From contig NC_056753.1 of NCBI RefSeq assembly GCF_018687715.1, positions 8,145,001-8,209,000 of the forward strand: a stretch of DNA of 64,000 nt, read 5' to 3'. The notes under the pieces are model-generated. The model saw nothing but the letters and a program-made list of their open reading frames with translations, made no database searches and was not told where the DNA came from. Shown here piece by piece: positions 16,380-58,640 of the stretch. Source of the stretch: Carya illinoinensis (Eukaryota; Streptophyta; Magnoliopsida; Fagales; Juglandaceae). The translations under genes were made by a program, and so were the position numbers. How positions within the stretch are numbered: position 1 is the stretch's first letter; each line of letters opens with the position of its first letter.

Positions 16380-19300
16380 TCAAGACTGGGCTCCAGTAAT
16401 GTCGATAGCCACGCTTTCTCTTTCGGGAATAGCCTGCTGGAAATGAAAGGTAAGTTATACAGCCATATATTGTAACAAAGTTTAATAAAATTAAACTTAT
16501 TACTATACCTGCATGTGTCCAACATTAGAGACATCCATATCAGAAGGGCCAAATAAATTCCTGCATACTTCCGTCATAGGTGTATCTCCTTTATCCACGA
16601 CCTGGGTATCTCCTCTATCCCACTAAGAATTAATTAACAAACAAATATACATTAAATCTCTCAATCAGTAATATCATATAAATAAAATGCGGATATTAAA
16701 ATATCTGCACCTCTTTACGCTTCCCCTTTGTTGGTGCTTTCTTCGTCTTTGCTTTAGCTTTCCGCATGTCTATCTCCATCCTGGATGCTCTCCTTAAAGA
16801 GGGAGGTCTGCCTTTACCTCGTACAACACGTGGACTACGTACTTCCCCAGAAGCACCGACTATAGTGTCATTCGCCGTACAATCAATATTGGAACCAATT
16901 TGAGTCATCGATGGGCCTTCTTGATTAGCACGATACAACTCAATCATTGCATATAACTTATTTCTTGCATCCTCAGTATTCTCTCTCGAACCCGATGCAT
17001 AAGTAATCATCTGATAACAGATATTTAAAAGACTGGTATATATATTCGAATCTGCGTGTTGTTCCCCTGCATCGTAGCTACTATGGATTAATGTGTATCG
17101 CATTCTAATATCCTTCCTCCATCGATCTAAAATATACATTTCAGGCAAAAATTTAATATCATTGCACCTGAATACGGTCAAAATGTGACGACACAATATC
17201 CCCCTCATCTCAAATAATCCACATGAGCACTTTGCAACTGCGTCTTCCTCACTAAAGTCTACAAAATGTTTAACCAACTTAGTGAACTCTTCCAAACAAA
17301 CTTCATCCTCAACCATATATGTCTTTATTGCACCAACAGAATTATGTAACTTTCGATTCAAGTCAATGATACCATTGACTTGATGTTGAACTTCTTTGAA
17401 CTTAGCTATCGTGTACAACTCTTGGAACCTCTTCTCAATTGGAGATCTAGATATACAGGGGATTGTCACATTAAATGATTGGAAGTCCGCGAGATTTTCA
17501 TTCTCAATCTTTTTCTTCAATGCATTATCAAATTGGTCTACAAACTCCTTTAAGTTTGTCCTAGAATGTACATAACCGTCAAAGAATGCATTCATGCTCT
17601 CACTTCGCTGCGTTGTACTCATTCCAACCCAAAAACAGTTTTTCAAAAATGCCGGTACCCAATGCTCACGCTCAACGTATAGGCTCTGCAACCATGCATT
17701 ATCTCCCAAGTTGTAAGTGGTAAGCAACTGATCCCAACATTTCTCAAACTCATAAACACATTGGGTGTCATATACACATTTCATCAATGCACTCTTCATC
17801 CCAGTTTTGTACGAACCATATGAGCCAAGCTTCTCAGGAATTTTCTTCAGTATATGCCAAAGACAAAATCTATGTCGGGTATTTGGGAAGACAATTGCGA
17901 TTGCATTTTTCATCACTTTATCTTGATCAGTGATAATAGCTTTCAGAGCATTACCATCCATGCATTGCAACCATGTCTCGAATAACCACACAAATGTCTC
18001 GGTATCCTCACTAGAAATCAAGCCTGCTCCCAACAGAATTGACTGCCCATGGTGGTTTACACCAACAAATGGTGCAAAGGCATACCATATCGATTCGTTA
18101 GGTACGTGGTGTCGAATGTGACCATATCGCCAAAATACTGGTATGTTGCTCTACTACGGGGGTCTGCCTAGAAGACGTTCTTTAACCTCCCATCATCATC
18201 TATATCCATCATATAAAAAAATCCAGAATTTTTGTATTGCATCCGTAAAAAATACTGTCGGAGCGCTCTAGCACCACCCGCGCCAAGTCACAGATGTCTT
18301 GCCTTATCAATATAATTACGACAATCCTTTTCCAAGAATGTGAGATTCTCAAATCCACCCGCACCAACAACGAGAGATCCGTAACTCTTATTCGCTCGGA
18401 TGTCAGCCAAGTCATTTGTATCTAGGACCCTTTTTACGGCATCACTAACTTCTCTATTACATCGAAAGAAGCGAGATTTCTTTAGACTTAGGCCATGGTT
18501 ATGGATATTATGTACTGTCGTCAACCGAAGCACTCCATCTTGCCTTAAGGCATTAATCTTTGCCTTACATTCTGTCTTTCCTGTCAGACGTGGGTTGGCG
18601 ACATTCAGCGTCCTATTCCGGGCCTTCCCACCACGGGCACAAAAAAGAGTGACGTATCTAACATAGTCATCTTCTTCCCTCTCAGTCCGTTTTATCATCA
18701 CCCCAAACTCAAATTTTTTACCATATTCCTTATAATAACTTAATAGCTCTTCAAGGGAATTAAACTCCATTCCCGAATTTGGCTCATCAATCGTATCATC
18801 ATCAACCACTTGGACATTCTGAGATTTCTCGGCACTGCCATTATTCGAGTCATCAACTATAGGAGATCCACATGGCGCTTCAGATTCCCCACCATCAGTA
18901 GTATTATCCAGCCCTGAACCAACTATTTTGCTCGTGGCAGAGCTTGTATTGCTGATATGACTCGGAGGTTCCATGATATGTTAAAATGAGTAACCAGCAT
19001 TCTGCAAAAAATTATAAAAGGTCATCAATTAAACTACTGCAATTAAGCCACCTGATTCTTTTAATAGTTGCAACAAAGCCAACTTATGGCTAATAAATTA
19101 GGATAAGTTATCACTACCTGTATGTTGATTGGATATTGGTTATCAGCCGGATATGGTAGAAAAGTTGGTGACCACGTAGGCACTGGTCCAAAGTAACCAG
19201 ACATATAATTTGGAATGTTTTGACTAGTTGATGGTATGGCCTAACATGTTATTAGATAAAGTTCAAAATGTATTTTGCAAAACAAAATATCAACAGTACA

Positions 19301-23628: not shown

Positions 23629-26600
23629 TTACCATTGATTTGGAAAGGCTTCTCGGTAATTTGCATCTTCACCTGATGTAAGCTCTCTTACTGTTGCATC
23701 CTTCACTCTCGTATTCAAAAGCCTCTCAGCTAACCTATCTTTCGATGTAACTTTCTTACGCAGCATGGACGACAGTGTTTCCTTTTTGTTTCTGGCTGAG
23801 GATGTCTCACTGTTAGTCACCTCCATATCTTGTCCAATAGCTTCAGATCTTGACGTTGATGCCAATGCAGCATCCCTTAGAACAGCTGCGTTGTGCTCCC
23901 TGATTTTGGCAAGCTTTGCGCGCTTCATTGACTCTTTATCAATTTCTCTCTTCTTTGTTACCTCTTTCTCTCTCTCACGAACATTCTTCACAGCTTGTTT
24001 TGCTAACTGCTCAACTAAATCAATCCTTGAATCAAGAATTATCTCATCTTTTAAAGAGTTCTGATTGAGTGGTTTTCCCTCATCATCTCGGGGTACAATA
24101 GGTCCATGAAACGGGCAAACTCTCAAATCTTTTCTCTGACAAACTCCCCCTTTCCTCAAAGGAGCACGGCATGGTTGAATTTCCATCGGCTCCTCTTTGT
24201 AAAGAGTTGCATGAACATTTAATTCTGCAATTTTCTCAGCTGGAATAACTGCATTATAGTCCACCCTCCCCCAGTGACTCTCAAGCTCCAATCCCCGCTG
24301 GTTAGCCAAAACCTCCCTGCTTGAACCCCAGTTATCCAAGAAAGAGCCCCACTTCATCACTGGAGCTTCAGCCATAAGCTTACCCTTCAAAGGGTTTGAA
24401 TCGGTTTCGTCATCTTCACGATTGAGCATTTCATTGTCATTACAATCTCTGTTACTGCTTTCAGGAGTTCTATTTTTCAACTCACTAGATGTTGACGCCA
24501 TGGAAATATCTTCATTTTGCTTATCAGGCACAGCAGACTTCCCATTCTCAAGTGATCCAATCTTACCCTCCTCCCAGAAATCTTCATCTTCTTCATCATG
24601 ATTTGCAGTCGTCACAAGAGCACAACCTGACTCTTCACACTTCTTCTTCACCGATATGAGATTATTTCGGATGTCGATTAACTCCTTCAAAACAGAATCT
24701 CTGAACCTGTTGTCTGCTACTTCAACCCTTACAAGAACGGAAATCCATTCTTGGACTGAAACCAAATGCTTTGTCGCTAAAAGCTTGTATAGCTCCCTTA
24801 ATGCATCAAAAACCACTTTATTTTCACTGTTTTCACGAACCTTTCCCCCTTCTTTTAAAGTATTGAGACGTATTTGCAGCAGTTCAGATGAACGAAACTC
24901 CACAAAATCTTCATCGTCCAAAGGACCTGGTGGCATGAATTCCTCTTTTGTACAGACAATGTCTAAACACTCCCCAATCTCATCTATCGTTAACTTTATT
25001 TCTTCCTTTATTGATGAGAAATTCTCCTTCAACATTTCAAATTTGTTTAGTAAGATCTCTTTTGACCTCCTTTCCCTTTCACTTCTCTCCTGCTGAATCC
25101 GTGCTGCATGTGCCTGTAGATTAGGAAATTGAAACTTGAGGGTGTTTTTAAGGTAGTCAAATCCTAATCTGAGCTGCCTGTAATGAACCCCAAAGGAAGT
25201 GTTCCACTTCTCCAAGAATTCGATTGCCTTCGACCGCAAAACAGATGCCACGGCTGGTGGAGCAGGAAGAGGCAGATTTCTTCTGAACCCAACACTCAAA
25301 CTCAGTAACTGATCCAAATTCTCAACAAGGACGGTTCTGAAAAGCTTCGACCGCATGAAGAGTTCATCAATTATGAGAAGCGTGAGGTACCTTACCTGCA
25401 ACAAATTGAGTGAAGATCAAATCTTTTGTCTACCAAAGCCTACTCTCACAGAAGCAATATTTATGAACATTTTAAGGGCGGCAAACTCAAAGAAATAATA
25501 AAGAAACAAATAACTGCCAGCCCAAAACAATCATAGAACTAAATTGTTCCAGAAAATGAGAAAAGCGAAGGTTGGGTGGGTGAATACTTGATTATTTCTG
25601 CCACGAATGAAAAATACCCATACCCCTAATTATAGCGTGATCAAGGGCACCTCAAGTAAATCATACCTCAGAAGAAAAGACTTGACTCTTCAACCAATCT
25701 ACCTAAATGAAAAAAGTTGTTTAATCTACCTAAAATTAAGATAAAATCTTAAGGCTAATATCTTCTGTACGTTCTGTGTACAATGCTGAAAAAATTTTGA
25801 GGTCTCAAGTTCATAACCATATGACCAGTAGTCTTAGAACAGATGTCACCCACCGGGTGAGCCTAATATTAAAAATCACTCTAAAGGAAAGGAGGATACA
25901 CGTCTTTATCTTAAGGCTAATATCTTCTGTCAGTTCTGTGTACAATGCTGCAAGAATTTTACGGTCTCAAGTTCATAACCATATCACCAGAAGTCTTAGA
26001 ACGGCAACCTACCAAACAGTTTTCATATAGCAAAAAAGTCACAGTAGTTAAGTACAAAACCGATCGAGGCTCCACATCTTCTTACTTCATTGCCTGCTAT
26101 GTGTGACGATAAATCTGAGCATTCTCCATGTCCTTTCCAACTTTCTCCTGATTTTCAATCTGTCTCTCACTTTAGCGTTTCTAAGCTCTCACAATATTTA
26201 TTGCTCCCCTTATATTTTATGATGATCGTATGGGACAACAAGTGATACCACAGAATTTCTATCCCCGGTACACAAACAAATATGAGTGTCTCAATGCTCA
26301 GCAAAAATTGCATCTAAAATCTACAAATCAACTGACAGAAACCATAAAGAATGCTTCTTGGCGGGGGAAATATGGAGCAAAATAATAAGTAGATAATTAC
26401 AATCCATTACGTTTTAAAAATCAACCAAGAGAATTAACATAAATTTATACGACTCCACTTTATTTTCTTCCCTCTAGTGTAGCCGCTGAAAGGAAAATTA
26501 AAGTCTTGTGGAGTTTCTCTATGTTGCCGAAAATTATTGAGAATATGAGTCAAAATGGACGAAATAGTAAAAATGGAACAAAAAATAAGCATACCAACAA

Positions 26601-34986: not shown

Positions 34987-35235
34987 TAACTGGTGTTTCT
35001 CAGAGCATTCTCCTTTCCCTAAGAGGACGTTTGTGGGGTTGTGAAGAGGGTGACATCTGATTTTTTTTTTTTGCCCTTTTTTCTATTTATTTTTCATTGT
35101 CTTTGATTTCCTGCCTTTGTTTGTATGACTAGTTGGACTAGAGACCACACATCTCGACTGTTTAGGACATAATCGTTGACATCTTTTAACTCTGCATCAC
35201 ATTCTCTTGAATCATCATTTTACATTAATAGCATC

Positions 35236-36825
35236 ATGGCTGAAAATGAACATCATGATAGGGATGTGGGAAATCCGAATAGAACACTTAGAGGATATTT
35301 GCATCCTGTTAGTACCACCACTCCATCATGCATCATTACACCTTTGAATGCTCATAATTTCAATTTTAAACCTGGAATGATACTGTTATTGCCTCATTAT
35401 CATGGGATGGATTATGAAAATCCCTATTTGCACCTCAAGGAATTTGAGGAAATATACTCCACATTTTTGGATCAAAATTGTACTAAGGAGATTGTTAGAT
35501 TGAAATTGTTTCCTTTTTCTCTTAAGGACAACGTAAAAACATGGTTGAATGTATTGAGGCCAAGATCCATTGGAACATGGCAAGAAATGCAAGCTAGCTG
35601 AATTTTTGAAAAAGTTTTTCCCAACGCATCGAACCAATACTTTGAAAAGACAAATCATGAATTTTTCTCAAAAAGAAAATGAAACTTTTTATCAAAGTTG
35701 GGAAAGGTTCAAAGATCTTTTAAGTGCTTGTCCACACCATGGTTACGAGAATTGGCGCATCATTAGCTTTTTTTTTTTTTTTTTTTTATTTTTTTTATGA
35801 AGCTTTGGTACCTAAGATGCGACAATTTGTCGAAACTATGTGTAATGGAGAATTCTTTGATAAGGAGCCGGAAGAAGCATTTGCATATTTTGATTACTTG
35901 GCTGAAAGCGCTCAATCATGGGATACTTCTTGTGTTTATGATAGAGTTGAACCATTGAGGACCGTGAGTGGGGGATTTTAAATGAGGAGGATGATTTAAA
36001 AGCCAAATTTGCCTTATTGTCAAAAAAATTAGAGGCGATTGAGTTGAAGAAAGTGCATGAAATTCAGGGCATTCTAAAACAAGGAAAATGTAACATCTGT
36101 GAGGATATTAGTTATGTAACATCTAAATGCCCTACTATTCTAGCTTTTAAAGAAGTTTTGTGTGATGCTTCTCATCCTGTTAACATGATTTCTGAGCTTT
36201 TTCTTGCACCATATTCTAACACTTATAATACAGGTTGGAGAAATCATCCTAATTTTAACTGGAGAAATGATCATCTCACAAATTTAGCACATCCGGGAGC
36301 TGGTACACCTCAATATTCAGTTCATACCCAACAAAATGCACTAATTCCAGCCCCTAGAAAACCCATGGATGACCCATTTCAACAAATGACTTCTACTCTT
36401 CAACAGTTCATGCAAAGTCAAACCACCATAAATAACTAAACTTCTCAAGCCATCAATGACATAAGGAATAATTTGACCAAGCTGAACACAATCTTGAGTG
36501 CACAAGAGAAAGGAAAATTCTCATCTCAACCCCAACCAAATCCTCAAGTCCAAATTGCTGTCATAGAGTCTTCATCTTCTTCAAAAGCAAATGTCAGGAC
36601 TTGCAAGGCAGTAATAACTCTCCGTAGTGGCAAAGAAGTTGATACATTGGGTAATGAAGCTAGCAAGAAAGGTGAAAGTTCCATTTCTACTGCACAAGGT
36701 AAAAATTCTGATGTTGATGTTTTTTTGGAACCAAAGGTAACTCCTCCGGCACCCTTTCCTCAAAGATTGGTTCCTTTACATAAAGATAAACATTATGCTG
36801 AGATTTTAGACAGTTTTAGATAAGT
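35236..36825 (+). pseudogene. Retrotransposon gag, broken
   Basis: Starts at the ATG at 35236. Gag-type features are the HGMDYENPYLHLKEFEE block, LKLFPFSLKDNVKTWL and ETFYQSWERFKDLLSACPHHG. Breaks: a frameshift near 35598, an expanded T-run at 35769-35800, a stop at 35979-35981, and a stop at 36437-36439. A zinc-knuckle-like CNICEDISYVTSKCP remains at about 36088-36132. The frame continues to 36823, where another stop separates it from protease. Confidence 0.85.
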
Positions 36826-39800
36826 GCGCATTACCATTCCTCTTCTTGATGTCATTGAGCAAATTCCCACATATGCCAATTTTTTAAAGATTTGTGTACG
36901 GTTAAAAGAAGACTTAATGTGAAAAAGAAGGCATTTCTCACGGAACAAGTCAGCGCCATTATTCAATCCAATACTTATCCTAAGTATAAAGATCCAGGTT
37001 CTCCAACAATAGCTTGTGTTATAGGAAGCTCCAAAATAGGCCAAGCACTACTAGACTTAGGTTCTAGTGTCAATTTGCTTCCTTATAACACGTATGAACG
37101 ACTTGGTTTAGGAGAGTTGAAACCAACTTCTATTATCTTGCCATTGGCCAACCGTTCAATTAAAAAGCCTAGAGGAGTGGTAGAAGATGTGTTGGTGCAA
37201 GTGGATAAATTTTATTATCCCGTTGATTTTGTGGTATTAGATGTTCAATTAACTTCTCACTTTATTTTTCAGGCATCTGTCATTTTAGGGAGACCATTTT
37301 TGGCTACTTTCAACGCTTTGATAAATTGTCAAAGTGGCATCCTTAAATTGACTTTTGGAAATATGACATTGGAGTTAAATGTGTTTAACACTTGTAGACA
37401 ACCACAAGATTTGAAAGAACTTCAGGAAGTGAATTTTTTGGAATCCTTACTTACTGAAGAATGTTTTTTATTAGAGCAAGAGAGTCAAATGGAACATGTT
37501 TTACTTGGAATCTTAGAAAATAGTGCGCTGTTGGATACTAATGCAGTAAATTCTGGTGCAGGTAGCAAAGTTGACTCATTGTGGTGACTCAAATTCAAAG
37601 ATCTGCCACTTCAAACCATAAACCAGCAACTATCGGATGAAGTTCCTCTATCTCCGGTTTTGAAACCACTACCTGAATCGTTGAAATATGTTTTTCTTGG
37701 GCCAACTAACACTTTTCCATGTATTATCTCATTTTCTTTGTCAGTTGAGTAAGAGGAGCAACGCTGACGGGTCCTTAAGCAACATAAAGGAGCACTTGGA
37801 TGGTCGATTGCCGACATTAAAGGAATCAGCCCCACCATTTGCACACATTGAATTTCTTAGAGGAAAATTCATCATCAACTCAAGAGATATAAATGAGGTT
37901 GAATCCTACGATGAAGGAGGTGGTTAAAAATGAAGTTTTGAAGCTCTTGGATGTAAGTATCATCTATCCCATCTTGGATAGTCAATGGGTAAGTCCTACT
38001 CAAGTAGTTCCTAAGAAATTTGGGATTACAATTGTGAAAAATGAAAAAGATGAGTTAATCCCAACTAGGACCATCACAGGATGGCGCATGTGCATTGATT
38101 TTAGGAAACTAAATGCTGTCACAAGAAAGGACTATTTTCCATTACCATTTTTAGACCAAACTTTGGAAAGAGTTGCGGGTCATAGTTTTTATTGTTTTCT
38201 TGATGGTTTTTCGGGATATTATCAAATTAAAATAACCCCTGAAGATCAAGAAAAAACTATTTTTACTTGCCCGTTTGGAACTTTTGCATTTAGGAAAAAT
38301 GCCCTTTGGACTTTGTAATGCACCTACGACATTTCAGCGATGCATGTTAAATATTTTTAGTGACATGGTTGAGCATATCTTGGAGGTGTTTATGGATGAT
38401 TTTTTAGTCTATGGTGATTCATTTGATGCATGCCTTACTAACCTCACTGCCGTTTTGGCTCAATGTGAAGAGAAAAATCTGCTTATAAATTGGAAAAAAT
38501 GCCATTTTATGGTGCGACAATGTATTGTTCTTGGTCACATCATTTCAGCCCGAGGCATTGAAGTTGACAAATTTAAAATTGATCTAATATCGATGTTACC
38601 CATTCCAAAATCAGTCAAAGATATTAAATCAGTTTTGGGACATGCCGAGTTTTATAGGCGTTTCATAAAAATTTTTAGCTCCATATCGAGACCTTTGTGT
38701 GAGTTGTTAGCTAAGGATTGCGTTTTTAATTGGACTGATGCATGTCAAGTTGCTTTTGAGCAACTCAAATCTATGCTTGTCACTGCACCTATAATTCAAC
38801 CACCTGACTGGTCATTGCCATTTGAGATCATGTGTGACGCCAGTGACCTTGCCATAGGTGCTGTCTTTGGTCAGCGGAGAGGTAAGTTTCCATTTGTGAT
38901 TTATTATGCAAGCAAAACACATGATGCAGCTCAGAAAAATTACTCCACCACTGAAAAGGAGTTACTAGCAATTGTTTTTGTTTTGGATAAATGTAGAGTT
39001 TACGTTTTAGGCTCTCCAATTGTTATATTCACTGACTATGCAGCTCTTAAATATTTGCTCACAAAGAAAGATGCCAAACGTCGACTAATTAGATGGATTT
39101 TGTTGTTGCAGGAATTTAATATCATCATCAAGGATAAGAAGGGAGTGAAAAATGTGGTTGCCGACCACTTATCTCGACTCATTGTTGAAAATTCTGAACT
39201 TTCCACTCTCATTTCAGATTCCTTTCCGGATGAACAACTTTTAGCTGTTGATTCTTTGCTTTGGTTTACTGATATTGTGAATTTCTTGGTGACAGGACAC
39301 ACCCCACCACATTGGAGCCCTTAAGACATCAAAAAGTTTAAATTGGAGGCCAGATTTTTCTTTTATGATGACCCCTATTTATTCAAATATTGTTTTGATC
39401 AAATTTTGAGGAGGTGTGTGCCTAATTGTGACATTCCACACATATTAAATTTTTGTCATGCTAGTGTGTGTGGAGGCCACTTTTCAGCTAGAAAAATAGT
39501 GGCTAAAATCTTGCAATGTGGTTATTATTGGCCCTACATGTTCAAGGATACTTACAATTTTTATAAAGCATGTGAACCATGCCAAAAGTTAGGAGGAATG
39601 ACCCGTAGAAACATGATGCCCTTACAACTCATTTTAGCATTATAAATTTTTGATAGTTGGGGGGTTGATTTTATGGATAATTTTTCATCTTCTTTTGGTT
39701 ATCTTTACATTCTTGTTGCTGTGGACTATATTTCTAAATAGGTCGAGGCAATACCGTGTAGGACCAATAACCATCGAGTGGTGTTAAAATTTTTGAAAGA

Positions 39801-40562
39801 CAACATTTTCACTCGGTTTGGGATACCAAGGATTTTAATTAGTGATGGAGGTTCCCACTTTTGCAATAGATCATTTTGCGGTATTAATGAAAAAATATGG
39901 GATTCATCACAAAATTTCAACTCCTTATCATCTTTAAACCAATGGCCAAGCTGAGTTGGCCAATTGTGAAATCAAAGTCATTCTTGAAAAAATAGTCAAC
40001 CCAAATAGGAAAGATTGGTTTTTGAGGCTTTCGGACACTTTATGGGCTTATAGGATAGCTTTTAAAACTGTCCTAAGCATGTCTCCCTATCGTTTGGTTT
40101 ACGGTAAAGCATGTCATCTCCCTATTGAGCTAAAACACAAGGCTTATTGGGCTATCAAGTACTTTAACTTTTTTATTAACAATTCTGGTGTTTTAAGAAA
40201 ATTGGAGCTGAATGAATTAGAAGAGTTGAGGCACGATGCTTATGATAATGCCAAACTTTACAAGGAGAGAACTAAGGCTTTCCATGATAAGCACATTTTG
40301 AGAAAGAGTTTTCTCTCCAATCAAAAGGTTCTCCTCTACAACTGTAGACTCTATGTGTTTGCCAGTAAATTTCGATCCAAATGGATTGATCCTTATATTG
40401 TATAGAGAGTGTTTCCTCATGGGGCTGTTGACATCCTCAATCCACACATTGGTAATATCTTTAAGGTTAATGGACAGTGATTCAAACATTTCCTTGAACA
40501 TTTTTCACCAGAGGATACCACAATCCATCTATTGGACCCTGACCTTCCAACCGAGCCTTGAT
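36826..40562 (+). pseudogene. Ty3-type pol (protease, RT, RNase H, integrase), broken
   Basis: Protease at 36892-37587 has LLDLGSSVNLLP as the active-site block. Reverse transcriptase starts about 37893 (WRMCIDFRKLNAVT, then FLDGFSGYYQI) and runs, after a one-base shift in an A-run near 38298, into MPFGLCNAPTTF and the catalytic FMDDF. RNase H follows (YYASKTHDAAQKNYSTTEKE, then IFTDYAALKYLL). Integrase starts about 39400 with an H/C zinc finger (CHASVCGGHF, then CEPCQKLGG), continues into a catalytic core with two in-frame stops (39643-39645 and 39739-39741) and a shift near 39870, and ends with [19 protein letters not shown] and the typical [12 protein letters not shown] tail. No part is likely to be active. 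Confidence 0.88.
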
Positions 40563-47770: not shown

Positions 47771-48060
47771 TAAAAAAAAATATACACAAAACTTACATAT
47801 CTTAAAACCACACGTGACCACATTTATCGATTTGGGGCTACTCTGCTGCCCCACCCTTACCGCTTGGGCTTATCGCTCAGTGTAAATTTTTTTTTCAATT
47901 TTTTTCATAATTTTTTAATCACTTTCTTAATTATTAAGAAAAAAACAAATACACCAATACATTTAAAATTCATTTCTTAATCACTGAATAAAAAAAAAAT
48001 TATTTTTTTCCTTAGTGGTACACTTGAGCGGTACCGCCCGGAGAGAGGTTCTTGGGAAAA

Positions 48061-48675
48061 CATATTCGATTTTGGATATTTCTGATTGTTGACATGAATC
48101 GTTTGCGAATCACTTTCGATGATACTCATAAATTAGAATGCTCCTGTGAAAAGTAAGCTGAAGCCTTTCGAATTGCCAGAGCTTCCACGTACATTTTCTA
48201 CTTCCAGTTACCCATAATATCGTGGTTTACAAGTTGCCATATATCAAAACTCTTAACCATTTTCATTGTCCCCTTCACATTAGACTTGACAAATTTGTAA
48301 AGTTTTGATTGAGAATGAAAGAGAACATGAAGGAACAAATCTGTAGAGATGATCACAGGAATCGATGTAATCCATATAAGCATGCAGAAAGTCTTGTATT
48401 GTGACACGAAACCGCTCTCACCGAAGTAGAAAACATGGGGAGAGAAATAACTACACAACATAACTTCTTTTCGGCATACCAAATATAAATTGCGAAAGTA
48501 GATAGTTTTATTAATTTTTTTAATAAATTAACATTATCCCAAATATAAATTGTAGATAGTTTTATTAATTTTTTTAATAAATTAACGTAATTTAATGTGA
48601 TAGATTAAATTTTAATTTTATAATTTGACTTATTTAAATAATTTATTTTTTCCTGAAATTACAAGGCTCTTCCAA
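48061..48675. other. Aspartyl-protease 3' flank
   Basis: The AT-rich part next to the stop codon is probably 3' UTR. A weak minus-strand similarity to a LINE RNase H (ESDSQ at about 48095-48110) is too short to call. A roughly 50-bp direct repeat (AAATATAAATTG...GTAGATAGTTTTATTAAT) lies at 48481-48590. Confidence 0.4.
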
Positions 48676-50115
48676 TCATTCGCACCCACGCGGAGCAAAT
48701 CCGACCCGTGAACCTGCCAAATCATAGACGACGCGGAATCCTTGCTGCTGGATATTTCCTACGATCGACAAACCGCTCGTGGTACCTGCAAACGCGAAGC
48801 AAAATCTCCCATCGGTATCCACCGGAATCAGATAATTAGTCGCCGGCAACGACATGTCAGCGCCTCGAAAATGCAACACTACCGTTGGTACCTTCACCTC
48901 TGCCTTCCCGGACAAGTCATAACAAGTGTCGAACAACGAGAATTCCGGTGCCCGCTTCAGTTTGGATGTTCCGGCCCGGAACGCGTTTCTCAAGGCTATG
49001 TATGCAGGTCTGGTTAATCGGGTTACGGACGTGCCCGAGTCAATGATGACACCGCCGTTCCCAATCGGGTCCAGTTTGGACAACGAAGCTGTGATGCCGG
49101 CGACGTGCACTCCCCCCACGCTGATCCCGAGGAGTTCGACGTAGTAGAAAGTGTCGAGATTGGGGTTCACTAGCAAAGGAGTGAACTGGGCGGTCCGAGA
49201 AACCGCTGCGTCGCCAAACACGATCGAGGACGGTCTGGACGAGGCGGAGCGGTCCACCAAACAGTACGAGAACTTCCGATTAAACTGTCGACCGGTCTGC
49301 AAGGGAAACGATAACTTCCCCCGACCGAGGCCCAACAATCCAGCAGCACCGACGAACAGGCCCTCGTTATCGTGGCCACAGCCGAGCGCCACGCGTTCTA
49401 CTTTTTTGCCACGGAACGTCAGCGTTTCTGTGGAGAACTCGCCCAGTGTGAAGGATCCATCGCCGTAGGAAACTTGATAGAGACACCTGTTGCGTGAGTT
49501 GCAGCCCTGAGAGTCGAGCTTCCGGCACAAGGGGGAGCCACAGGATATGCCGACAAAGGATCTGGACTTGGTGGGGTCGAAGACAGGGTCGACCTGGGAG
49601 TAGCATTTCCTACACGGAGCGCACTGGATCCAGACTACATCGCTCCCGGTGTCCAGCACCATGTACACGTACTTTGGAGGAGTGCCCACACCGATGCGCG
49701 TGAAGTACTCCCCGCTGCCGTGGGCGAGGCCGGATATGATGGAGCTGCTGAACCCGCCGACAGTGCCGCCAGCACGACTCCCGTTTCCAACAGCTACGAG
49801 TGAGGTTAGGGCCTTGACTCTGAGAGCGTCGCGTTGGAGCCTGAGGTGGAAGAGTTGCTCAGGAGTTTTGTCGAGGGACAAGGAGTCTAAATGGCGTAAT
49901 TGGAGGGTGGTGGTGGAGGCGGCATCTGGGTCGTGCACGGAGGAGTCGGGAAGCAGGGAATCTGATTCAGGCAATGAGAGGGTGTGTGCGTTGGAAGAAA
50001 GTGGGTTGAGGACAAGGTTTTGGAACTGAAGTGGGGCCGAGGAAGAGGTTGAGAGAAAGAAGAAGAGAATGGTGAGGGTAAGAAGGAAAGTATTTGTCTT
50101 TGGGATGGGTTCCAT
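48676..50115 (-). CDS. A1-family aspartyl protease, secreted or vacuolar
   Basis: An intronless frame gives 479 residues from the ATG at 50115. An N-terminal hydrophobic signal peptide (NTFLLTLTILFFFLSTSSSA) is followed by a propeptide with the plant-typical LQLRHLDSLSLDKTPEQLF. The first catalytic block, LDTGSDVVWIQC, has Asp at about residue 155; the second, IIDSGTSVTR, has Asp at about 359. Between them are the nepenthesin-like Cys-rich insert (CAPCRKCYSQVDPVFDPTKS) and YGDGSF in the flap. The closing block is SIVGNIQQQGFRVVYD with GFAPRGC. This is the plant atypical (CDR1/nepenthesin-like) group, closest in memory to Arabidopsis At3g61820/At1g01300. It should cleave proteins in acidic compartments or the wall; the substrate is unknown. 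An in-frame ATG 20 codons upstream (50175) exists, but a TATA-like box at about 50193-50206 leaves no room for a leader before it. Confidence 0.94.
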   Translation of the reverse strand: MEPIPKTNTFLLTLTILFFFLSTSSSAPLQFQNLVLNPLSSNAHTLSLPESDSLLPDSSVHDPDAASTTTLQLRHLDSLSLDKTPEQLFHLRLQRDALRVKALTSLVAVGNGSRAGGTVGGFSSSIISGLAHGSGEYFTRIGVGTPPKYVYMVLDTGSDVVWIQCAPCRKCYSQVDPVFDPTKSRSFVGISCGSPLCRKLDSQGCNSRNRCLYQVSYGDGSFTLGEFSTETLTFRGKKVERVALGCGHDNEGLFVGAAGLLGLGRGKLSFPLQTGRQFNRKFSYCLVDRSASSRPSSIVFGDAAVSRTAQFTPLLVNPNLDTFYYVELLGISVGGVHVAGITASLSKLDPIGNGGVIIDSGTSVTRLTRPAYIALRNAFRAGTSKLKRAPEFSLFDTCYDLSGKAEVKVPTVVLHFRGADMSLPATNYLIPVDTDGRFCFAFAGTTSGLSIVGNIQQQGFRVVYDLAGSRVGFAPRGCE

Positions 50116-50189
50116 TTTGAAGATACAGGCGAAGAGGAGGGAGGGAGTCTTGCGAGTGAGACTGAGTGCATGCATGGGGGCGAGAGAGG

Positions 50190-50210
50190 GTGCTTTAAAT
50201 AAATAATATT
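50190..50210 (-). promoter_or_regulatory. TATA-like box of the aspartyl protease gene
   Basis: On the minus strand ATTATTTATTTAAAGC lies about 80-90 bp upstream of the ATG at 50115, and only about 20 bp upstream of the ATG at 50175. It therefore supports the downstream start. Confidence 0.5.
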
Positions 50211-50392
50211 GGAGAGAGAGTGGTCGGTGTCGGTGTCCAGTTATTAGAATGTAATTTTTATTAAATTTTTTTTCCGTTTTCTTATTTAGTAATACTATAA
50301 ATAATTGTGAAGTGTATAAATATTACATAATCGTTTTGAAAAAGAATGAAGTTCACGATTAAAAAGTTAGTTTTTTCTTTTATACTACAAGA

Positions 50393-50660
50393 AATCAGGG
50401 GTTTTGCAGCAATTTTTTTTTGTTGAAAATATAATCGCTGCAATAACATATTAAAAGCAGCGATTTCAGTACGCTGCAAGCCTTTAAAACAGTAATTTTA
50501 ATTTTTATTTATTTGCAGCGATTGTTTACTTATTACAACGAAACGTAATGCTGCAAAAGATAATTACTGTGCACTTATGAAAATTGCAGCGCCTGTTTGT
50601 GCTATTACAGCGATTTTCGCCGTCGGAGTTTAAATTTAGGTTTTAGCAGCGCTGTATTCT
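50393..50660. repeat. Left subterminal repeat array of the CACTA-like element
   Basis: Repeated TGCAGCRATT-type motifs in both orientations at spacing of about 20-40 bp. Confidence 0.8.
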
Positions 50661-50998
50661 TCGCTACTACAGATATTGCCGCGCCCAACACAGTTGAACT
50701 TTTAATTTCCCCCCCTCCCCCCAACTTTTTTTCCCCCAATGTTTGCTCACTCCGATTCTCATCTGCACAACCTTTTGCAGTTCGATAATTTCCCACCAAC
50801 AATCTCGCAGCTCAATCCACCCCAACGAAAATAGACCTTATCGCGTTCTCGAGTGGCTTGATCTCCTCCACCTCTAGCCACTCGAGCGTTTCTCCCATTC
50901 GGGTTCTCTCCCATTCGCGTTTTTGGTTCACCAAAATCAAACTTATGCCGAGCTCCCAATCGTAAACCCTAATGTGCAAACGGCCTTCCACTTGATTC

Positions 50999-51130
50999 TT
51001 AAGCATTGTCTCCGTTTGGGAAGCTGAAGGACTACGTTTCCACCTTCGCTGGAATAGACGATTCCTTGCCTCCATTTCTAGTCCGAAGTTATCAGTCCTC
51101 TGTTTTCAAGAATGATCATACGAGGCTCCA
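50999..51130 (+). pseudogene. Captured exon of an unidentified gene
   Basis: A plus-strand open segment reads ALSPFGKLKDYVSTFAGIDD followed by SLPPFLVRSYQSSVF and KNDHTRLQ, then meets a plausible GT donor (CTCCAG|GTATAT at about 51130). It looks like a first coding exon or part of one. I do not recognise the family. It lies in the same orientation as the PP2C and PheRS fragments within the CACTA-like element. Confidence 0.45.
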
Positions 51131-51997
51131 GGTATATCTCCTATTGCCACTGATTTTTTCAATACCCCTTTACGAGTAGGTTGCATTACAAAAGTTGTTG
51201 TTTTTTGATGTACACTTGTGGGTCTTTTGGTTGATGTGAAACTGATGTGCCATACGTTTGTTTGAGTTAAACTTTTGTGTATCTGCCTTGTGTTTGGATT
51301 GCTCAATCAATTGTGTGTATTAGATAATCTGAGTATCAATTGTGTGTATCTGCCTTGTTGATGATCAATCACTAAGTTCCTTCAATACATTGAAATGTGT
51401 GGGGATTTGTACTATGATGCATGCCTGCTTACATGTGTAAAGTTAATTAAGAACCATACTTTTCTTGGCCATTTTATATTATTCTGCACATGTTCGAAAT
51501 ATCAAGGCAAAAATTGATACTATGAGTATATTATTATTAGCTTCTACCCTTTTTATTGTTTTAGCATCAACATTGGAGGGTAACAAATATCAACATTGTC
51601 TTTCTTCAGCTTGACCTTAATTCTTGCTGGTTCCAATATGTCATTCTCTGTGTCATCCATTAATGAAGCATGTGAAACCTTCTTTTCCTAATTGATAATC
51701 TTTTTAACTTTTGGGACTACAAAACTCCTCATCACTGATGAAGTCAATAATGCAGCTTTATTGATATTTGTTAACTCAACATTGTCTTTCAATTTATTTA
51801 TTGAACAAGACCCCATAAGACTCTTATGTACTTAGATGTTTGGCAAGAATTCAGTTCTATTTCTAATTGTATTCCTTGTTGGGAAACTATCTGATTCAAA
51901 GTCTGAACCCCTTCTAACGTTTTTATCCAATCTATATCTCATCTTGGTGTGGTAACTTCCAAAATTGTACTCATGTAAATCCAATTGCTTTTCAGGC

Positions 51998-52108
51998 AAG
52001 GTGGTTGCAAAGTTCTGTGCCAAGTATCTTCACCAACAGGTGATCAACATTGTTTTATATGCTTTCCAATGGAGACATAGGAACTTCTGTTAAGAAAGCT
52101 TTTTTCAG
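51998..52108 (+). pseudogene. Captured protein phosphatase 2C fragment (two exon pieces)
   Basis: After a TTTTCAG acceptor, the frame reads KVVAKFCAKYLHQQ and ends at a GTGATC donor (about 52046). A second piece (about 52068-52108) reads NGDIGTSVKKAFFR and ends at AG|GT. In plant PP2Cs these blocks are adjacent, shortly after the metal-binding DGHGG motif, which is itself missing here. No other PP2C part (catalytic core, C-terminal metal ligands) is present, so the fragment cannot encode a phosphatase. Confidence 0.8.
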
Positions 52109-52388
52109 GTTTCATAATTATATTCTTGAGAATTCAATTCTTTTTCATCACTTTCTAATAATCAGGATGTTGTTTCAAAAGGCCACTGTTTTCCATTCAT
52201 AGTAATCATACCCAAATATATATATATATATATACCCAAATATATATATATATATATATATATATTTATCATATATAGTATCAAAACTTCTTCCAATTTA
52301 TGTTCATTTTTCTGTATGTTTCTTGTTCAAAGAGTGTTTTTCTGAACTCCTTTTTTTATTAGAACAAAAGATCCATTGAATCACTCAT

Positions 52389-52440
52389 ATGATCTTACTC
52401 CAATCACCCTCAACATGTGGGATGATTGGAGTAAGATCAT
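52389..52440. repeat. Perfect 18-bp inverted repeat (hairpin)
   Basis: ATGATCTTACTCCAATCA at 52389-52406 pairs perfectly with 52423-52440, with a loop of 16 bases. It lies within the CACTA-like element. Confidence 0.9.
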
Positions 52441-52879
52441 TCTATCATGTTTTATCCCTATGACAATAGCTATTGATACAGTGTAGAAGTTCTGCACTGA
52501 GCTATGTCCATATTCTAATTAAATGTAATGATTTGGAGATGTTTGGAAGTTGTAATGCAGAGTTTTTTTTGGATCTCAGCTGTTGAATATGATCACATCT
52601 ATTGCTGAATGTATTGGGCATTTGATACCAGTGACTGCTGTAATCTTGGTTGATTGGTTTTGATGATTGTCCTGCTCTAGATGTATCCTAAGGATGCAGA
52701 AATAGTGGATAGTGAAGTAGAGAGTATGTCCTGACTTTTTTTTTCCTATTCTTTGATCTTATGGCATGCATTTAACTGATCAAGATGCAATCTTTTATTG
52801 GTTATATTAATAGTTTTACTGATCAGGATGCAATCTTTTTTTCTGGCCTTGAGAAGAACAGGGAGGATGCAATATTAGA

Positions 52880-54029
52880 ACTCACCAGTGTTCCCTGTGA
52901 TATATGACTACAAAAGGTATGAATCTTTAATGTTTATGAAATTATAAATATTCTTGTCTCTTTTACCTGCTAATCATTTAGTTATTGTTATTTATTTACC
53001 CTTCTATCAATTTACTCTATTTTGTGTCAAGTTATTGGAGCTTTATTTGCTTGGAAGATGTTGAGTTCATATTGTTCCTTTTACTGAGAGTACTGGCAAG
53101 TATTATGCAATTGTTTTTATTGAATGCTCATAGAACAAGAAAATCACGCAGCCTCTGTTAATGCTCTTACCATTGTCTGCCAACCAGTCTTTCCTTGCCA
53201 ATGATATATATCCAACTTATAGGAATGTTTGAATGCATGATTTTTATAAAATTTCTGAAAAATCTTCTAGGTTTTTGGAGGATTTTATGAAAGTGGTGAG
53301 ACCCATGAAAAACATGTTTTGATTGAGAAAGTTTTTGAGATTTTTTTTTTTAAGTGGTGGGGTCCATTTAAAATATGTTTGGGAAGATAATTTTTGTGAC
53401 TTTTTTTTTTGTTTTTTTGAGTTTTGATTTTTTTTTGCCATGGAAGTAAGACGTTTTTCTTATGAAATTTATTTTTGGGATTGTATTTTGGTGTCAAGAA
53501 GTTTGGATTGAGGGAAAAAAGTCTCAGAGAATTTTCAAAACTCTCTATTTCCAAATATATTTGATTTCTGCTTGCTGTTTAGTGTTTCATTTCTTTCTTT
53601 TTTCTTCCCCTGAAAATTCTATTCTTAATGCAAAATTTTATTCTTGATGCAGAATTGTTTTGTCTTTACCCCCAATTATCAATGGTGCACATTCAGCAAT
53701 CACTCTTAAGACGAAGAATGTGTTCATTGAATGCACTGCTACTGATTTGACAAAAGCAAAGATAGTTTTAAACACAGTGGTAATCAAGAAGTTCCCAGTT
53801 GTTTCAGATTGTAATTCTGATTTATAGCTGATGATTGAAAGGTTTTTATCTGTTCTCTTAGGTGACGACCTTCTCAGAATATTGTGAAAGAAAGTTTGAA
53901 ATTGAGCCAGTTGAGGTGATATATTCTGATGGGAAGTCGGTTGTTTATCCTGATTTATCTTTCTACAATATGGAAGTTCCTCTATCTTATATTACTGGTG
54001 CAATTGGGGTCCCCTTGGAGGCTGACGAG
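52880..54029 (+). pseudogene. Captured phenylalanyl-tRNA synthetase beta-subunit fragment (three exon pieces)
   Basis: Three pieces in the correct order and spliceable: about 52880-52917 (PVFPVIYDYKR, ending AG|GTATGA), 53653-53779 ([18 protein letters not shown], then [20 protein letters not shown], ending at a GT donor) and 53862-54029 (VTTFSEYCERKFEIEPVEVI, then YPDLSFYNMEVPLSYI, ending GAG|GTATTT). They correspond to the internal B-domain region of the eukaryotic cytosolic beta subunit. The first piece has lost a few bases at its start. The N-terminal and catalytic-like modules are absent, so no functional synthetase subunit is encoded. Introns are kept, which shows capture from genomic DNA and not from mRNA. 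Confidence 0.85.
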
Positions 54030-54579
54030 GTATTTCAATTTCTTCATATTATATTTCTATTTCAGGATTCATAAAAGCTTAAAATGCATCATTATAGTGG
54101 TTTCTGTGGGGGTAATTTGTGTCTTTGGGCACAGATTCATACCTTTTGAATGTGGTTGAATACAAGCTTTCCAAATATTTGATGTTTATTGCTTACACGT
54201 TGAAATATATTTAGACAGTTGTTGATATTGCAACTGGCTGCAGTGACCTTGAAGCTATATTCCACTCACCAATGCCAAGAGCATAGCTATTACTGCCTAC
54301 CATCTTTTCTTGAATATGGGAGCAATTACTTTTAGTTGAAAGTGATGAAGTGCACTTAGGATCGACTTGAAGTTTCTGCTTGCCTATGTACTGAACATAT
54401 TTCTACTTGTTGTATATCAATTATGTACTGAACATATTTCTACTTGTTGTATACTGAATGTACTTTGTAGAACATTTTCTATGTACCCTTTGTATTATTA
54501 AGTAAAGGGAATTAAATCCTAGCTGATCTACGAACTTTGCTTCTAATACAAGTGAAAAAAATTACTGAAACTGATCAAA

Positions 54580-54815
54580 TGCAGCGCCATGGCAATCACA
54601 TGGGGTGGCCTTTTGCAGCGTGAAATGAGTGACTTTGCAGCGGTTAAAAAACGCTGCAACTGAGATCTTTTGCGGCGTTTTTTTAATAACGTTGCTATTG
54701 ATCAAAAATATCACTTTTATACTGTCGAACATGCAAGGAGGGTAATAACGCTGCAATTGATTAATTGCAGCGTTTTTTGAATGTATTTGCAACGATTTTA
54801 AGCGCTGCAAAAGGT
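54580..54815. repeat. Right subterminal repeat array of the CACTA-like element
   Basis: About eight GCAGCG/CGCTGC motifs in both orientations, mirroring the left end. Confidence 0.8.
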
Positions 54816-54831
54816 CTAATTTCTTGTAGTA

Positions 54832-55890
54832 ATTACATGAGTCTCATATTAATTCACTTTTTTTAAAAAAATTACATTGTGCTTACATAACTACGATTAC
54901 AAATATCATATATATTTCTTATTAATTTAAGTAAAATGCTAAATGCAATCGGCTTTTGCAGTCTTCATGCAAATTGTGGGACGTGGCCTAACACGTAGTA
55001 TTAATAAAACGACGAGCATATAATCATTTTTGTAAATAAATTCTTTTACGTACAAGCATTTTATTCTTCATTTTACGAGCTAATTTTTTCTTTTGTGTCT
55101 CCCTTCCCCTGTTTTTCTCCCTCCAACCTCCCACTCTCCTTCCCTTCTCCCGTCAAGTAGAAAATCCTAAGTCCCAAATAGGAAAACCCTCCCTTTAGTA
55201 GGAAAATCTTAAAGACCCAAGATAGCAAATAAAACCTCTAATAAATTGAGCTTGAAATTTTACTACACTTGAGCGGAGGGTTTCACTAATTCCTTAAAAT
55301 GAAACCAAATGCAAACAAATGAAACAAAATTCTCTTCTTTTCTTTTCTCAATGACCAAACAGAGTTAAGATCCAAAATGCAACATTGTCAATCTTTTCTC
55401 ACAACCATAGTCTTATTGTAAACTTGCCAACATGTAGGACTAGCAAAATAGGCAAATATAATCCATGTATGACCGTGCGTACAAATGTACAGATGAAATA
55501 AAACATATACAACTCATAAATGGTTGAAGATCCGAAAAAAGAAAGAGTACTATAACGTCTGGGGAATTTAGGTGTGGGGAGTGGGGAGCTGCAGACTGAG
55601 TTGAAGCTGGATTCACAAAATAATACAAAGCAACCAGCTGAGATAATGTTGAATTCACCAAGTAAGGCAGAGGAGAGACAGAGCGAGAGAGAATGGAGGA
55701 AAGTTGGGAGATGGGAACTTTTTTATTTTTTTCAATTTTCTTAGTTAAAGGTGATCATTCTTTCAATTATTTTTTTAAAAATTAAAGATGATGTGACCCA
55801 GGGCCACTCTAGATTGCACAACAACTGCATCCGACGCTTTTCCGTAGAAATCCGTAGAAAAGCTATTAATTTAATGCAGATAAGAGGATG
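54832..55890. other. Intergenic, no gene recognised
   Basis: AT-rich with pyrimidine-rich patches. Short open frames show no family resemblance. Confidence 0.55.
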
Positions 55891-56158
55891 TAGCTACCGT
55901 CTAATCTTGCTTGGACTTGGGAAATGCTCTGCATGCTGTAGCCTTGCAGTCTCCTTTCATTTATATAGACCAAGTGTACAACATATATTATAGAGAGTAT
56001 AAATGGACAGAATCAAAGTTATACAAAAATACAAACAAGGATCATTGCATGACATGCTGCACAAATCACGAGTTAAGCTTCCATACATAGACAAGTTATC
56101 TGTTGGACATAATCTAGTCTTGTGAGGATTGATTGTCTTTTATCAAAGAATCCTTAAT
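55890..56158 (-). mobile_element. Probable 3' LTR part of a Copia element
   Basis: On the minus strand, a purine-rich AGTTTGAAGGGGAATATT precedes ATTAAGGATTCTTTG, a common Copia LTR start. A TATATAAATG box lies at about 55963-55972. The far end is not resolved. Confidence 0.5.
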
Positions 56159-56900
56159 ATTCCCCTTCAAACTTAATGTGGATGGAAGGACGTTGAGTTT
56201 GCTACGCAGAAAGGAAAACTGAGTGGCAACTAGAGGTTTGGTAAGACCATCGGCAATTTGATCTTTGCTGGATATGAATTGGACCTCCAGAGATTTTTGA
56301 TGAACTTTTTCCTCGACAAAGTGGTAGTCAATTTCAACATATTTAATCCGAGCATGAAAGACTGGGTTGGCTGTGAGGTAGGTAGCTCCAATGTTGTCAC
56401 ACCAAATGATTGGTCATGTGGAGAGAAAATAACCAAGTTCACGAAGCAAAGATTGAAGCCACAGAGACTTTGCAGTTGCATGGGCCACTGTGCGATACTT
56501 GGCCTTGGTGCTAGAGCGAGCAATCGTAGGTTGCTTGTTGGGGCTCCATGAAATGAGATTCAGACCAAAATAAATATAATATCCAGAGGTGGATTTCTTG
56601 TTATTGGGACACCTTGCCCATTCGGCGTCGGAGTAGATGGAGAGTTGAGTGGAGGTGTTGGGTCGAATGAGAAGTCCAGAATCAATGGAGAACTTGAGGT
56701 ACATGAGGATCCGTTTGACAGCAAACCAGTGTTCATCAGTGGGTTTGTGCATGAACTGGCAAACCTTATTGACAGAAAAAGAAATGTCTGGACGTGTTAA
56801 AGAAAGAAACTGAAGGGCTCCAACTATGTTGCTATAGAGTGATGGGTCTTCGAAGGGGGCAACAAAGACTTATCCGATTCAGTTGTGCTTGGAAGACTAA
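56159..56900 (-). pseudogene. Ty1/Copia pol, RNase H end
   Basis: A minus-strand frame reads HWFAVKRILMYLKFSIDSGL, then IYSDAEWARCPNNKKSTSGY, then SWSPNKQPTIARSSTKAKYR, the classical Copia RNase H. Downstream the frame shifts into degraded matches to the conserved CDN...A...HARTKHIE end. Everything upstream of RNase H (gag, protease, integrase, RT) is absent from this locus. Confidence 0.87.
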
Positions 56901-56939
56901 GTTGTGCAACCAAATCATTCTCATCAAGTATTGAGATTG

Positions 56940-57400
56940 GGGATTGAATTATGTAATTGATAGGTCTTGGGATCCATTTATTTTTCCATATACTATAATA
57001 CTTTTAACATTCCCTACTCTCCAGCACAGACCTTCAAGCAATAAATGTCTGGCTAGAAAAATGCTTTTCTTTGCATAAGAAGCATGTTTAGGCAACATTG
57101 CCTCAAATAGTAAAGAATTAGGAAAATACATAGCTTTAAGAATCCCAGTAGACATAGATGAAGGTTATTGTAACATTCTCCATAGTTGTTTTGCCAACAT
57201 AACTATATTAAAATACTCTATATCCTTGAAACCCTTCATTTGTCAGACTGATACGTTAGTATTAGCTTTTTTCTCAAAAAAAATTAAAATTTCATTAGAA
57301 TCACCCATTACAATCTAAGGCGAAGAAATCCCTCTGCTTAAGGATCTATGTATGTCCCAAACTCTTCAATCTTTTGTCTGTGATATGGATCTAGGCTTTT
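56940..57400 (-). pseudogene. LINE ORF2 remnant
   Basis: Minus-strand piece with YFPNSLLFEAMLPKHASYAK followed by SIFLARHLLLEGLCWRVGN matches the region between RT and zf-RVT in plant L1 elements. Weak endonuclease-like MGDSNEI lies next to it, so the remnant is rearranged as well as decayed. Confidence 0.65.
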
Positions 57401-58640
57401 TCTATCTAATTTGATTTGTTATAGGGGAACTTTAGTAAATTTGGATGTGGCATGGGCATTTGAGCCTAACTCGGGTCGCTTGTAGGGGCACATTGGTTGG
57501 ATCATTATCTGTAGCAAGTTTCTTTTAGTCCAACATGGGATCTTTAGAGGGTCATTTTGACCCAAGTGATCCGTAGAGGGACATTTCAGTTGGATCAAAA
57601 TGTAACAATGTCTTGATGTCCTACGGGGTAGGGTCTAAACTCATTCTTTCATTATAAATAGATAATAATTTTTTAATACCAATTAAGTAATCAACCCTGC
57701 AAATATATATAGAATCCAACCTTTTGATTGTAAGTCAACAATTCATCAATCACGGACAGGTGATTTATTTTAGAGTGCAAGTTGAAGAAAGAAAAATACA
57801 AAACCAAAAAAGAAGAAAAAAAAAAAAAAAAAACTTGATAGTACATGTTTTCTCGTGTGCACTAAACTATATATCATTGACTTATGGTAATTTAGGTCTC
57901 TCATTTTTTAATGAGGCAACAAACATATTGACATCCTGAAAACACGTACCCCTTTGTTCACTTTGAAAGCATGAAAATCCCCATGCATCTAAGAAAGTCA
58001 TTGATTGACGAAAGTTTTTGATGTTCTGGATTCCCAACCACAGCTCCTCAATCTATCCAACGGACGACTCCAAATGTCGACTCCTCGACTGTGTTTAAGG
58101 AACATGGGGTTCAAAGCTTTTGCAGTGGCTTTTTGTATACACATTATTAATTCTTTCTATACACATTGTGTTGTCTATATATACAGTGGCTTTTTGTTCG
58201 GTGTGTTCCGCATGCTCTCCTCTTGCATCCTTAATTTTATTTTAATGCTTCTATTATTACAATAATAATAATAATAATAATAAAAGAGTTAATGGAAATC
58301 GTACTCTTTCCTTACATTAATAATGTTGCTGTTTCCTCGTGACTCTTGTCTACCCTTCATCTGCTTTGATTCCTATCTTTTAAATTTTTAATCAACCACC
58401 TTCTTCTTCTTTATTATGTACTTCTTTCTTTCGAAAATGGCTGTTGACATTATTGTGTTCTTTTACATTCTCGCCACATTGGGCAAGTGAACTTATGAGC
58501 TTTTAATGTGGTAATGCGGTCTCTCATTAATGGTGCCATCTTGGAAACTATCAATAAATTTGATAAACAAATATCTGTGCCAAATTCTGATTATTAAAAT
58601 TAATGAAAAATAATTTTGATAGTCAAATCTTAATAAGGAT
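57401..58640. other. Intergenic, no gene recognised
   Basis: An (AAT)n microsatellite lies at about 58258-58283 and an A-run at about 57816-57834. Short open frames have no family resemblance. Confidence 0.55.

Follow-up and report, generated by a model that had tools for sequence, protein, structure and literature searches.

The DNA analysed here, referred to below as the window, is a 64-kb stretch of the Carya illinoinensis genome (G000:C2:8145001-8209000, contig NC_056753.1), and the survey that accompanied it covered the 674-Mb assembly in its 17 contigs. An aspartyl protease gene lies on the - strand of the window, and 207 bp past its first ATG begins an element with inverted ends, subterminal motif arrays, 5' and 3' modules that recur across the genome, and, between these modules, pieces of a PP2C60 gene and of the gene for PheRS-beta (Table 1). 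We identify the interval as a non-autonomous (Pack-type) CACTA transposon that carries these PP2C60 and PheRS-beta pieces, is mobile as a unit and entered a repeat resembling a miniature inverted-repeat transposable element (MITE). Our confidence in this identification is high, and it applies to the family ends, arrays and modules, the two gene fragments, the two full copies, and the insertion into the MITE-like repeat before the protease gene.

Table 1. Features of the element, its cargo and its insertion site (window coordinates)
Feature	Position	Strand	Remarks
Non-autonomous CACTA (En/Spm) element	50383..54831	+	4,449 bp; inverted ends; second full copy elsewhere in genome
Left terminal inverted repeat	50383..50410	+	28-nt arms; CACTACAAGAAAT is the start of most other copies
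Right terminal inverted repeat	54804..54831	-	28-nt arm pairing
Left subterminal GCAGCG/CGCTGC array	50383..50702	.	6 exact motifs
Right subterminal GCAGCG/CGCTGC array	54572..54831	.	7 exact motifs; lacks ~400 bp found in sister copy C2:26590200-26595039
Family 5' module	50384..51339	+	at least 15 further near-full copies at 74-98%; 12 copies including the window's aligned
Captured PP2C60 segment (intron, exon, intron)	51787..52230	+	89% to PP2C60 gene at C8:690214
PP2C60 exon	51996..52108	+	frame broken by diverged patch, sister copy likewise
Captured PheRS-beta segment (part of one exon, two exons, introns)	52877..54135	+	matches C15:32001434-32002712
PheRS-beta exon	53653..53779	+	frame open
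PheRS-beta exon	53862..54029	+	frame open
8-nt filler at right PheRS junction	54136..54143	+	completes 16-nt inverted match
Family 3' module	54144..54830	+	common in pieces to many elements, 88-97%
Left half of entered MITE-like repeat	50288..50382	.	label by form
Target site duplication TTA, left	50380..50382	.	empty site in 6/6 fetched repeat copies
Target site duplication TTA, right	54833..54835	.	after one extra A at 54832
Right half of entered MITE-like repeat	54833..54909	.	flank matches and empty site
Aspartyl protease gene	48676..50175	-	499 aa, uninterrupted frame; TAXi_N, TAXi_C, Asp domains

The sequence ACTACAAGAAAT occurs as an exact inverted pair, at 50384-50395 on the + strand and 54819-54830 on the - strand, and a scan of the 64-kb window found no third site even with one mismatch allowed. 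Taken by itself this count is weak, since two or more matches at one mismatch were obtained in 22 of 100 shuffles; the evidence for terminal repeats rests on the exactness and placement of the pair, on terminal arms that pair over 28 nt at 86%, and on the genome-wide family described below. The outer base of the window copy is T at both ends, and the next 12 bases are exact. GCAGCG/CGCTGC motifs are concentrated in the element's outer 320 and 260 bp, which hold 13 of the 22 in the window; none lies in its 3.9-kb middle and nine are spread across the remaining 59.5 kb. Thirteen motifs in 580 bp were reached by none of 2,000 dinucleotide shuffles of both ends (shuffle maximum 5). The CACTA termini and the two subterminal GCAGCG arrays that a first-pass annotation had claimed from the window are thus upheld by the exact inverted ends, the 28-nt arms, the shuffle test and the family. 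No transposase gene is present in the element, in which the largest frame spans 117 codons antisense to PheRS, and no further copy of it was detected in the window, where matches outside the element are AT-rich or short. A search of Rfam over 48000-58500 gave no matches, and a text search of the literature for CACTA together with TACTACAAGAAA returned no paper.

The end pattern ACTACAAGAAATNNGNNNNTTTGCAGCG has 201 matches in the genome (105 and 96) versus none for the reversed control; 100 of these places were listed, and ten end pairs were picked by eye from those 100. At least 87 matches were found when the whole element was used as query (40 of 675 candidates scored). C or G is the outer base at 19 of the 20 ends in the ten pairs, the family ends being mostly CACTACAAGAAAT, and a derivative of ~580 bp (L022) shares the outer T of the window copy at its left end only. 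The first-pass annotation had expected other copies to carry TACTACAAGAAAT; to the letter they mostly do not, but the next 12 bases are common to them, and the difference is therefore taken as decay of the ends and is no argument against the family. Of 21 other copies, 19 are flanked by exact 3-bp target duplications: 10 among the 11 fetched with both ends and 9 among the 10 pattern pairs. The further copies which that annotation had proposed to look for do exist. The two misses are L028, in which the right end has decayed, and the pair C4:36750198/36758373, and loci with one end or none within the fetched stretch (L011, L012, L017, L018, L019 and L024) stand outside these counts. In the Tpn1 family the duplications are likewise of 3 bp, with a mismatch in 14 of 339 copies (PMC5105172). 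A mariner-like reading, suggested within the window alone by ends of CTACAAGAAAT and a TA duplication, is ruled out by the family ends and duplications. Inverted ends, a 3-bp target duplication and short-motif subterminal arrays assign the family to the CACTA superfamily, and a host gene fragment with an identifiable donor, the lack of its own transposase gene and movement together with the cargo assign the element to the Pack-TYPE transposons.

The same mosaic recurs in a second full copy at C2:26590200-26595039, which differs by 42 substitutions in 4,414 aligned sites. Its flanks are dissimilar to those in the window and it possesses its own exact ATA duplication; because two full copies with the same mosaic sit at unrelated sites, the assembled unit has moved. 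Decayed pseudogenes or an artefact of assembly could be suspected at a locus with imperfect outer bases and an imperfect target duplication. We consider this explanation extremely unlikely in view of the second mosaic copy with its own duplication, five more elements with the PheRS piece, and an empty target site.

The empty site was recovered from the repeat into which the element had inserted, a dispersed sequence of ~170 bp that is MITE-like by form. The flanks of the window copy read TTA/TACTAC...GTAGTA/A/TTA. When they were joined with one TTA, the alignment continued unbroken across the insertion point in all six fetched repeat copies (76-80%), gaps being small and confined to the T run beside that point. 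Base 54832 is present in none of the listed flank matches besides the window itself (40 of 470 candidates scored). The empty site and this missing base together indicate that the duplication is TTA and that one extra base stands at the right end of the element.

The claim in the first-pass annotation that PP2C and PheRS-beta pieces lie in one orientation with introns and splice sites kept agrees with the full genes found elsewhere, with the sister copies, and with an intact AG before and GT after both PheRS exons and the PP2C exon. The donor loci that it suggested seeking in the same genome were found, on C15 for PheRS-beta and on C8 for PP2C60. The PheRS segment is 98.8% identical to the C15 gene if gaps are ignored (15 of 1,259 sites differ) and 97.3% identical if they are counted; the match is the middle of a PheRS-beta gene that was recovered exon by exon with a full-length protein. 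Translated together with the end of the preceding exon, the exons at 53653-53779 and 53862-54029 differ at 2 of 100 residues from a PheRS-beta of Juglans regia; the PheRS protein that is closest by identity (99%) comes from that species. Matches to a PheRS gene on C4 (72-83%) and to a PheRS-like locus on C16 (75-85%) are farther. Between the window copy and the C15 donor the introns differ at 11 of 924 sites and the exons at 4 of 335, that is, at equal rates, and the intron divergence is 0.012, ~3% of the 0.389 that separates the C15 gene from the C4 gene. With 38 of 38 candidates scored, the PheRS piece is present in seven elements. All of them have bases in common at element positions 2646 and 3376 that are unlike the donor, with which the C4 gene agrees, and the six carriers other than the window copy share the sequence left of the breakpoint; these shared features point to one PheRS capture. 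Part of the captured intron, at 53270-53560, is a dispersed repeat with many matches elsewhere in the genome (67-87%).

The PP2C segment is 89.0% identical over 453 sites to the gene at C8:690214, which was recovered exon by exon, with a full-length protein, using Carya PP2C60 as query. Other gene-like PP2C matches are farther, at 78% on C7 and 74% on C1 (33 of 33 candidates scored). The exon had no match in Pfam or the Protein Data Bank (PDB), and its identity came via a protein search and then the genome. Counting the window copy, it is present at six element-like loci: both ends were seen in the window copy and L009, one end in L011, L017 and L018, and none in L019, which is placed among the carriers by shared modules alone. 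These loci form two branches, one of L017-L019 (97.8-98.4% mutually) and one of the window copy, L009 and L011. The frame of the exon is broken in the window copy and in L009 by a diverged patch with a net gain of four bases. This patch, at 52040-52072, resembles ATCAACATTGTCTT repeats at 51589 and 51775 and is perhaps a second templated patch. A hairpin with 21-nt arms, 95% complementary, lies at 52389-52440 and is also found in L011. Among predicted proteins of other plants, those of Salix show PP2C60 pieces that recur in a mixture with an MI-domain gene, and in Tanacetum such pieces are duplicated within an odd protein; both sets look chimeric, which would fit a shuffling of PP2C60 exons in these plants too.

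A third captured gene, proposed in the first-pass annotation as an unknown gene, proved to belong to the family itself. The frame in question, 51003-51131, lies inside the 957-bp 5' module, of which at least 16 near-full copies exist including that of the window, with the element end. Among the 12 aligned copies the frame is open in five and broken in seven, and a splice-donor-like AG/GTAT at its end is kept in all 12. Its repetition together with element ends and its broken frame in 7 of 12 copies rule out a captured gene, and it is better read as a putative leader exon with a splice donor. It has no protein relative in the range of ~210-670 aa, no Pfam family, and no relative among the 120 listed of 263 matches of a mixed query; an exon-like frame in the 3' module, at ~54200-54269, likewise has no relative among the listed protein matches. 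The family probably took other genes as well, to judge from an antisense frame in L011 (C12:24919500-24929400) and L012 (C15:7383000-7392500), the right ends of which lie beyond the fetched stretches. In L011 this frame matches SPT16, a subunit of FACT, over 43 residues (PDB 5ce6, E 1.5e-10) and gave no Pfam match; that of L012 is the same by eye. An improbable idea is that the family constitutes a built-in exon trap, in which the conserved 5' leader with its splice donor and the conserved 3' module bracket the captured pieces. If so, each new capture would be transcribed and spliced at once, and the lineage would sample combinations of exons (PP2C, then PheRS, with SPT16 in sisters) by template-switching repair.

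The junctions of the PheRS segment bear on how the pieces were acquired. At the left junction the element reads ATATT/AGAACTCACC and the donor AATTG/AGAACTCACC; at the right junction the intron stops at GCACAGA and is followed by TTCATACC and the 3' module. The 16 nt at 54133-54148, across this junction, match 52911-52926, at the PheRS exon/intron border, exactly in reverse complement; if words of one or two letters are set aside, all other exact inverted 16-mers of the element belong to one local hairpin. Microhomology at the filler amounts to 3 and 5 nt. Short filler that is templated within the captured segment and accompanied by microhomology is a product of template-switching repair, and the 8-nt filler suggests that capture took place by such repair. 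Three sister stretches (L041-L043) have the 3' module without the PheRS insert. One of the three, on C6, also has the left-of-breakpoint sequence, positions 2407-2498, which lies at C6:25601133-25601223 with 91% identity and ~0.85 kb from the 3' module; with both sides present and other sequence between them, this element brackets the capture site.

These observations are consistent with a scheme in which a break or gap inside an element, probably left by excision, would be mended by repair synthesis that switched template and copied an unrelated gene, each fragment being acquired in this manner, and in which transposase from an autonomous relative would then move the product. As the introns are retained, the copying took place through DNA and not from spliced RNA. 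The PP2C piece was probably captured first and the PheRS piece later, an order suggested by their divergence from the closest present genes (89% versus 98.8% identity). We favour acquisition by repair-copying with moderate confidence; capture through errors in post-excision repair has also been suggested previously (PMC3260210).

Several observations weigh against this account or against parts of the identification. The filler evidence comes from one junction. The C8 gene is only 89% identical to the PP2C piece, the true source of which could be a lost or unassembled copy. The outer bases of the window copy are not C/G and its target duplication is one base off, for which end decay and the empty site account. 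Finally, the 5' ends of five of the six further PheRS carriers, which are of two types, do not resemble that of the window copy, and an exchange of 5' ends among carriers fits fusion or recombination of elements. Fusion of two neighbouring CACTA elements that then move as one, enclosing the gene pieces by local hopping, has been proposed generally for Pack-TYPE elements (PMC8903248), and these 5' ends are in its favour. Against it, one PheRS breakpoint falls within an exon and the other within an intron of the gene, neither of them next to an element end, and a 9.5-kb stretch at the donor has no exact end-like site and one mismatched site, ~550 bp from the left breakpoint and without adjacent GCAGCG. 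The filler, copied from within the captured piece, is moreover a signature of repair. We accordingly regard fusion as a possible but unlikely source of the cargo, and repair-copying as the preferred route.

The element might also have been kept for spliced chimeric RNA, or for siRNAs, acting on PheRS, PP2C60 or the protease. The captured exons keep their splice sites, as the aligned 5' modules keep AG/GTAT, and Tgm-Express1 of soybean (PMC1947982) and Tpn1 of morning glory (PMC5105172) make chimeric RNAs. In four of five elements compared, moreover, the PheRS exons are closer to the donor than the introns are (for example 1/299 versus 8/518 in the C9 element), a difference for which constraint on the donor gene could be sufficient. 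The broken frame of the PP2C exon, the partial PheRS piece and the equal divergence of exons and introns in the window copy speak against such a role, which we judge improbable. With respect to the protease, which lies to the left on the - strand, the captured exons are on the + strand and read rightward, away from it; sense fusion is therefore unlikely, and chimeric transcripts joining element and protease would be less likely. CACTA insertions near gene starts are reported to alter expression in other plants, at -154 bp in one case (PMC7210773) and in a 5' UTR in another (PMC8195511).

Several described systems resemble the element. The Tpn1 family of Ipomoea nil (PMC5105172) consists of non-autonomous CACTA elements with 28-bp inverted ends, subterminal repeats and captured host pieces as interior; it differs in genus and cargo, and chimeric RNAs and transposase-bearing relatives have been reported for it. 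Tgm-Express1 (PMC1947982), a CACTA element of 5.7 kb, contains pieces of five unrelated genes and retains introns. Unlike the window element, which precedes a gene with its cargo facing away, it is intronic and spliced into host gene RNA. Pack-TYPE or Pack-CACTA elements (PMC8903248; Catoni 2019, via PMC13317346) similarly have DNA transposon ends around gene fragments, and element fusion is possible for them, whereas the right junction in the window points to template-switching repair. Target duplications of CACTA elements are given as 5 nt for rice and maize (PMC8903248), in contrast to the 3 nt seen here and in PMC8195511 and PMC5105172. RsMYB1-CACTA of radish (PMC7210773) has ends CACTACAAGAAAA and lies 154 bp before a gene. 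LsC1 of lettuce (PMC8195511) is a non-autonomous element of 3.9 kb with 28-nt ends and a 3-nt duplication, and lies in a 5' UTR. For both of these an effect on the neighbouring gene was reported.

CACTA elements of other plants are already known to capture genes, and the route of capture is still argued. Here a single genome holds a near-identical donor, a sister element that brackets the capture site, the captured product, deletion derivatives and an empty target site, a trace that lets the order of capture be read and repair-copying be weighed against element fusion. It also carries a warning for annotation, as the PheRS and PP2C exons in these places do not represent genes.

Elsewhere in the window, a repeat of ~920 bp to the right of the element, at 54930-55850, has matches on C3, C4, C5, C13 and C15 (76-91%, some partial) among the matches listed. 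Further content at 16696-18033, 12032-12547 and 35176-40405 includes a MULE transposase frame with a SWIM finger, reverse-transcriptase frames and, by eye, further retroelement fragments. A UVSSA-like gene with UVSSA_N and DUF2043 domains lies on the - strand at 23629-25404.

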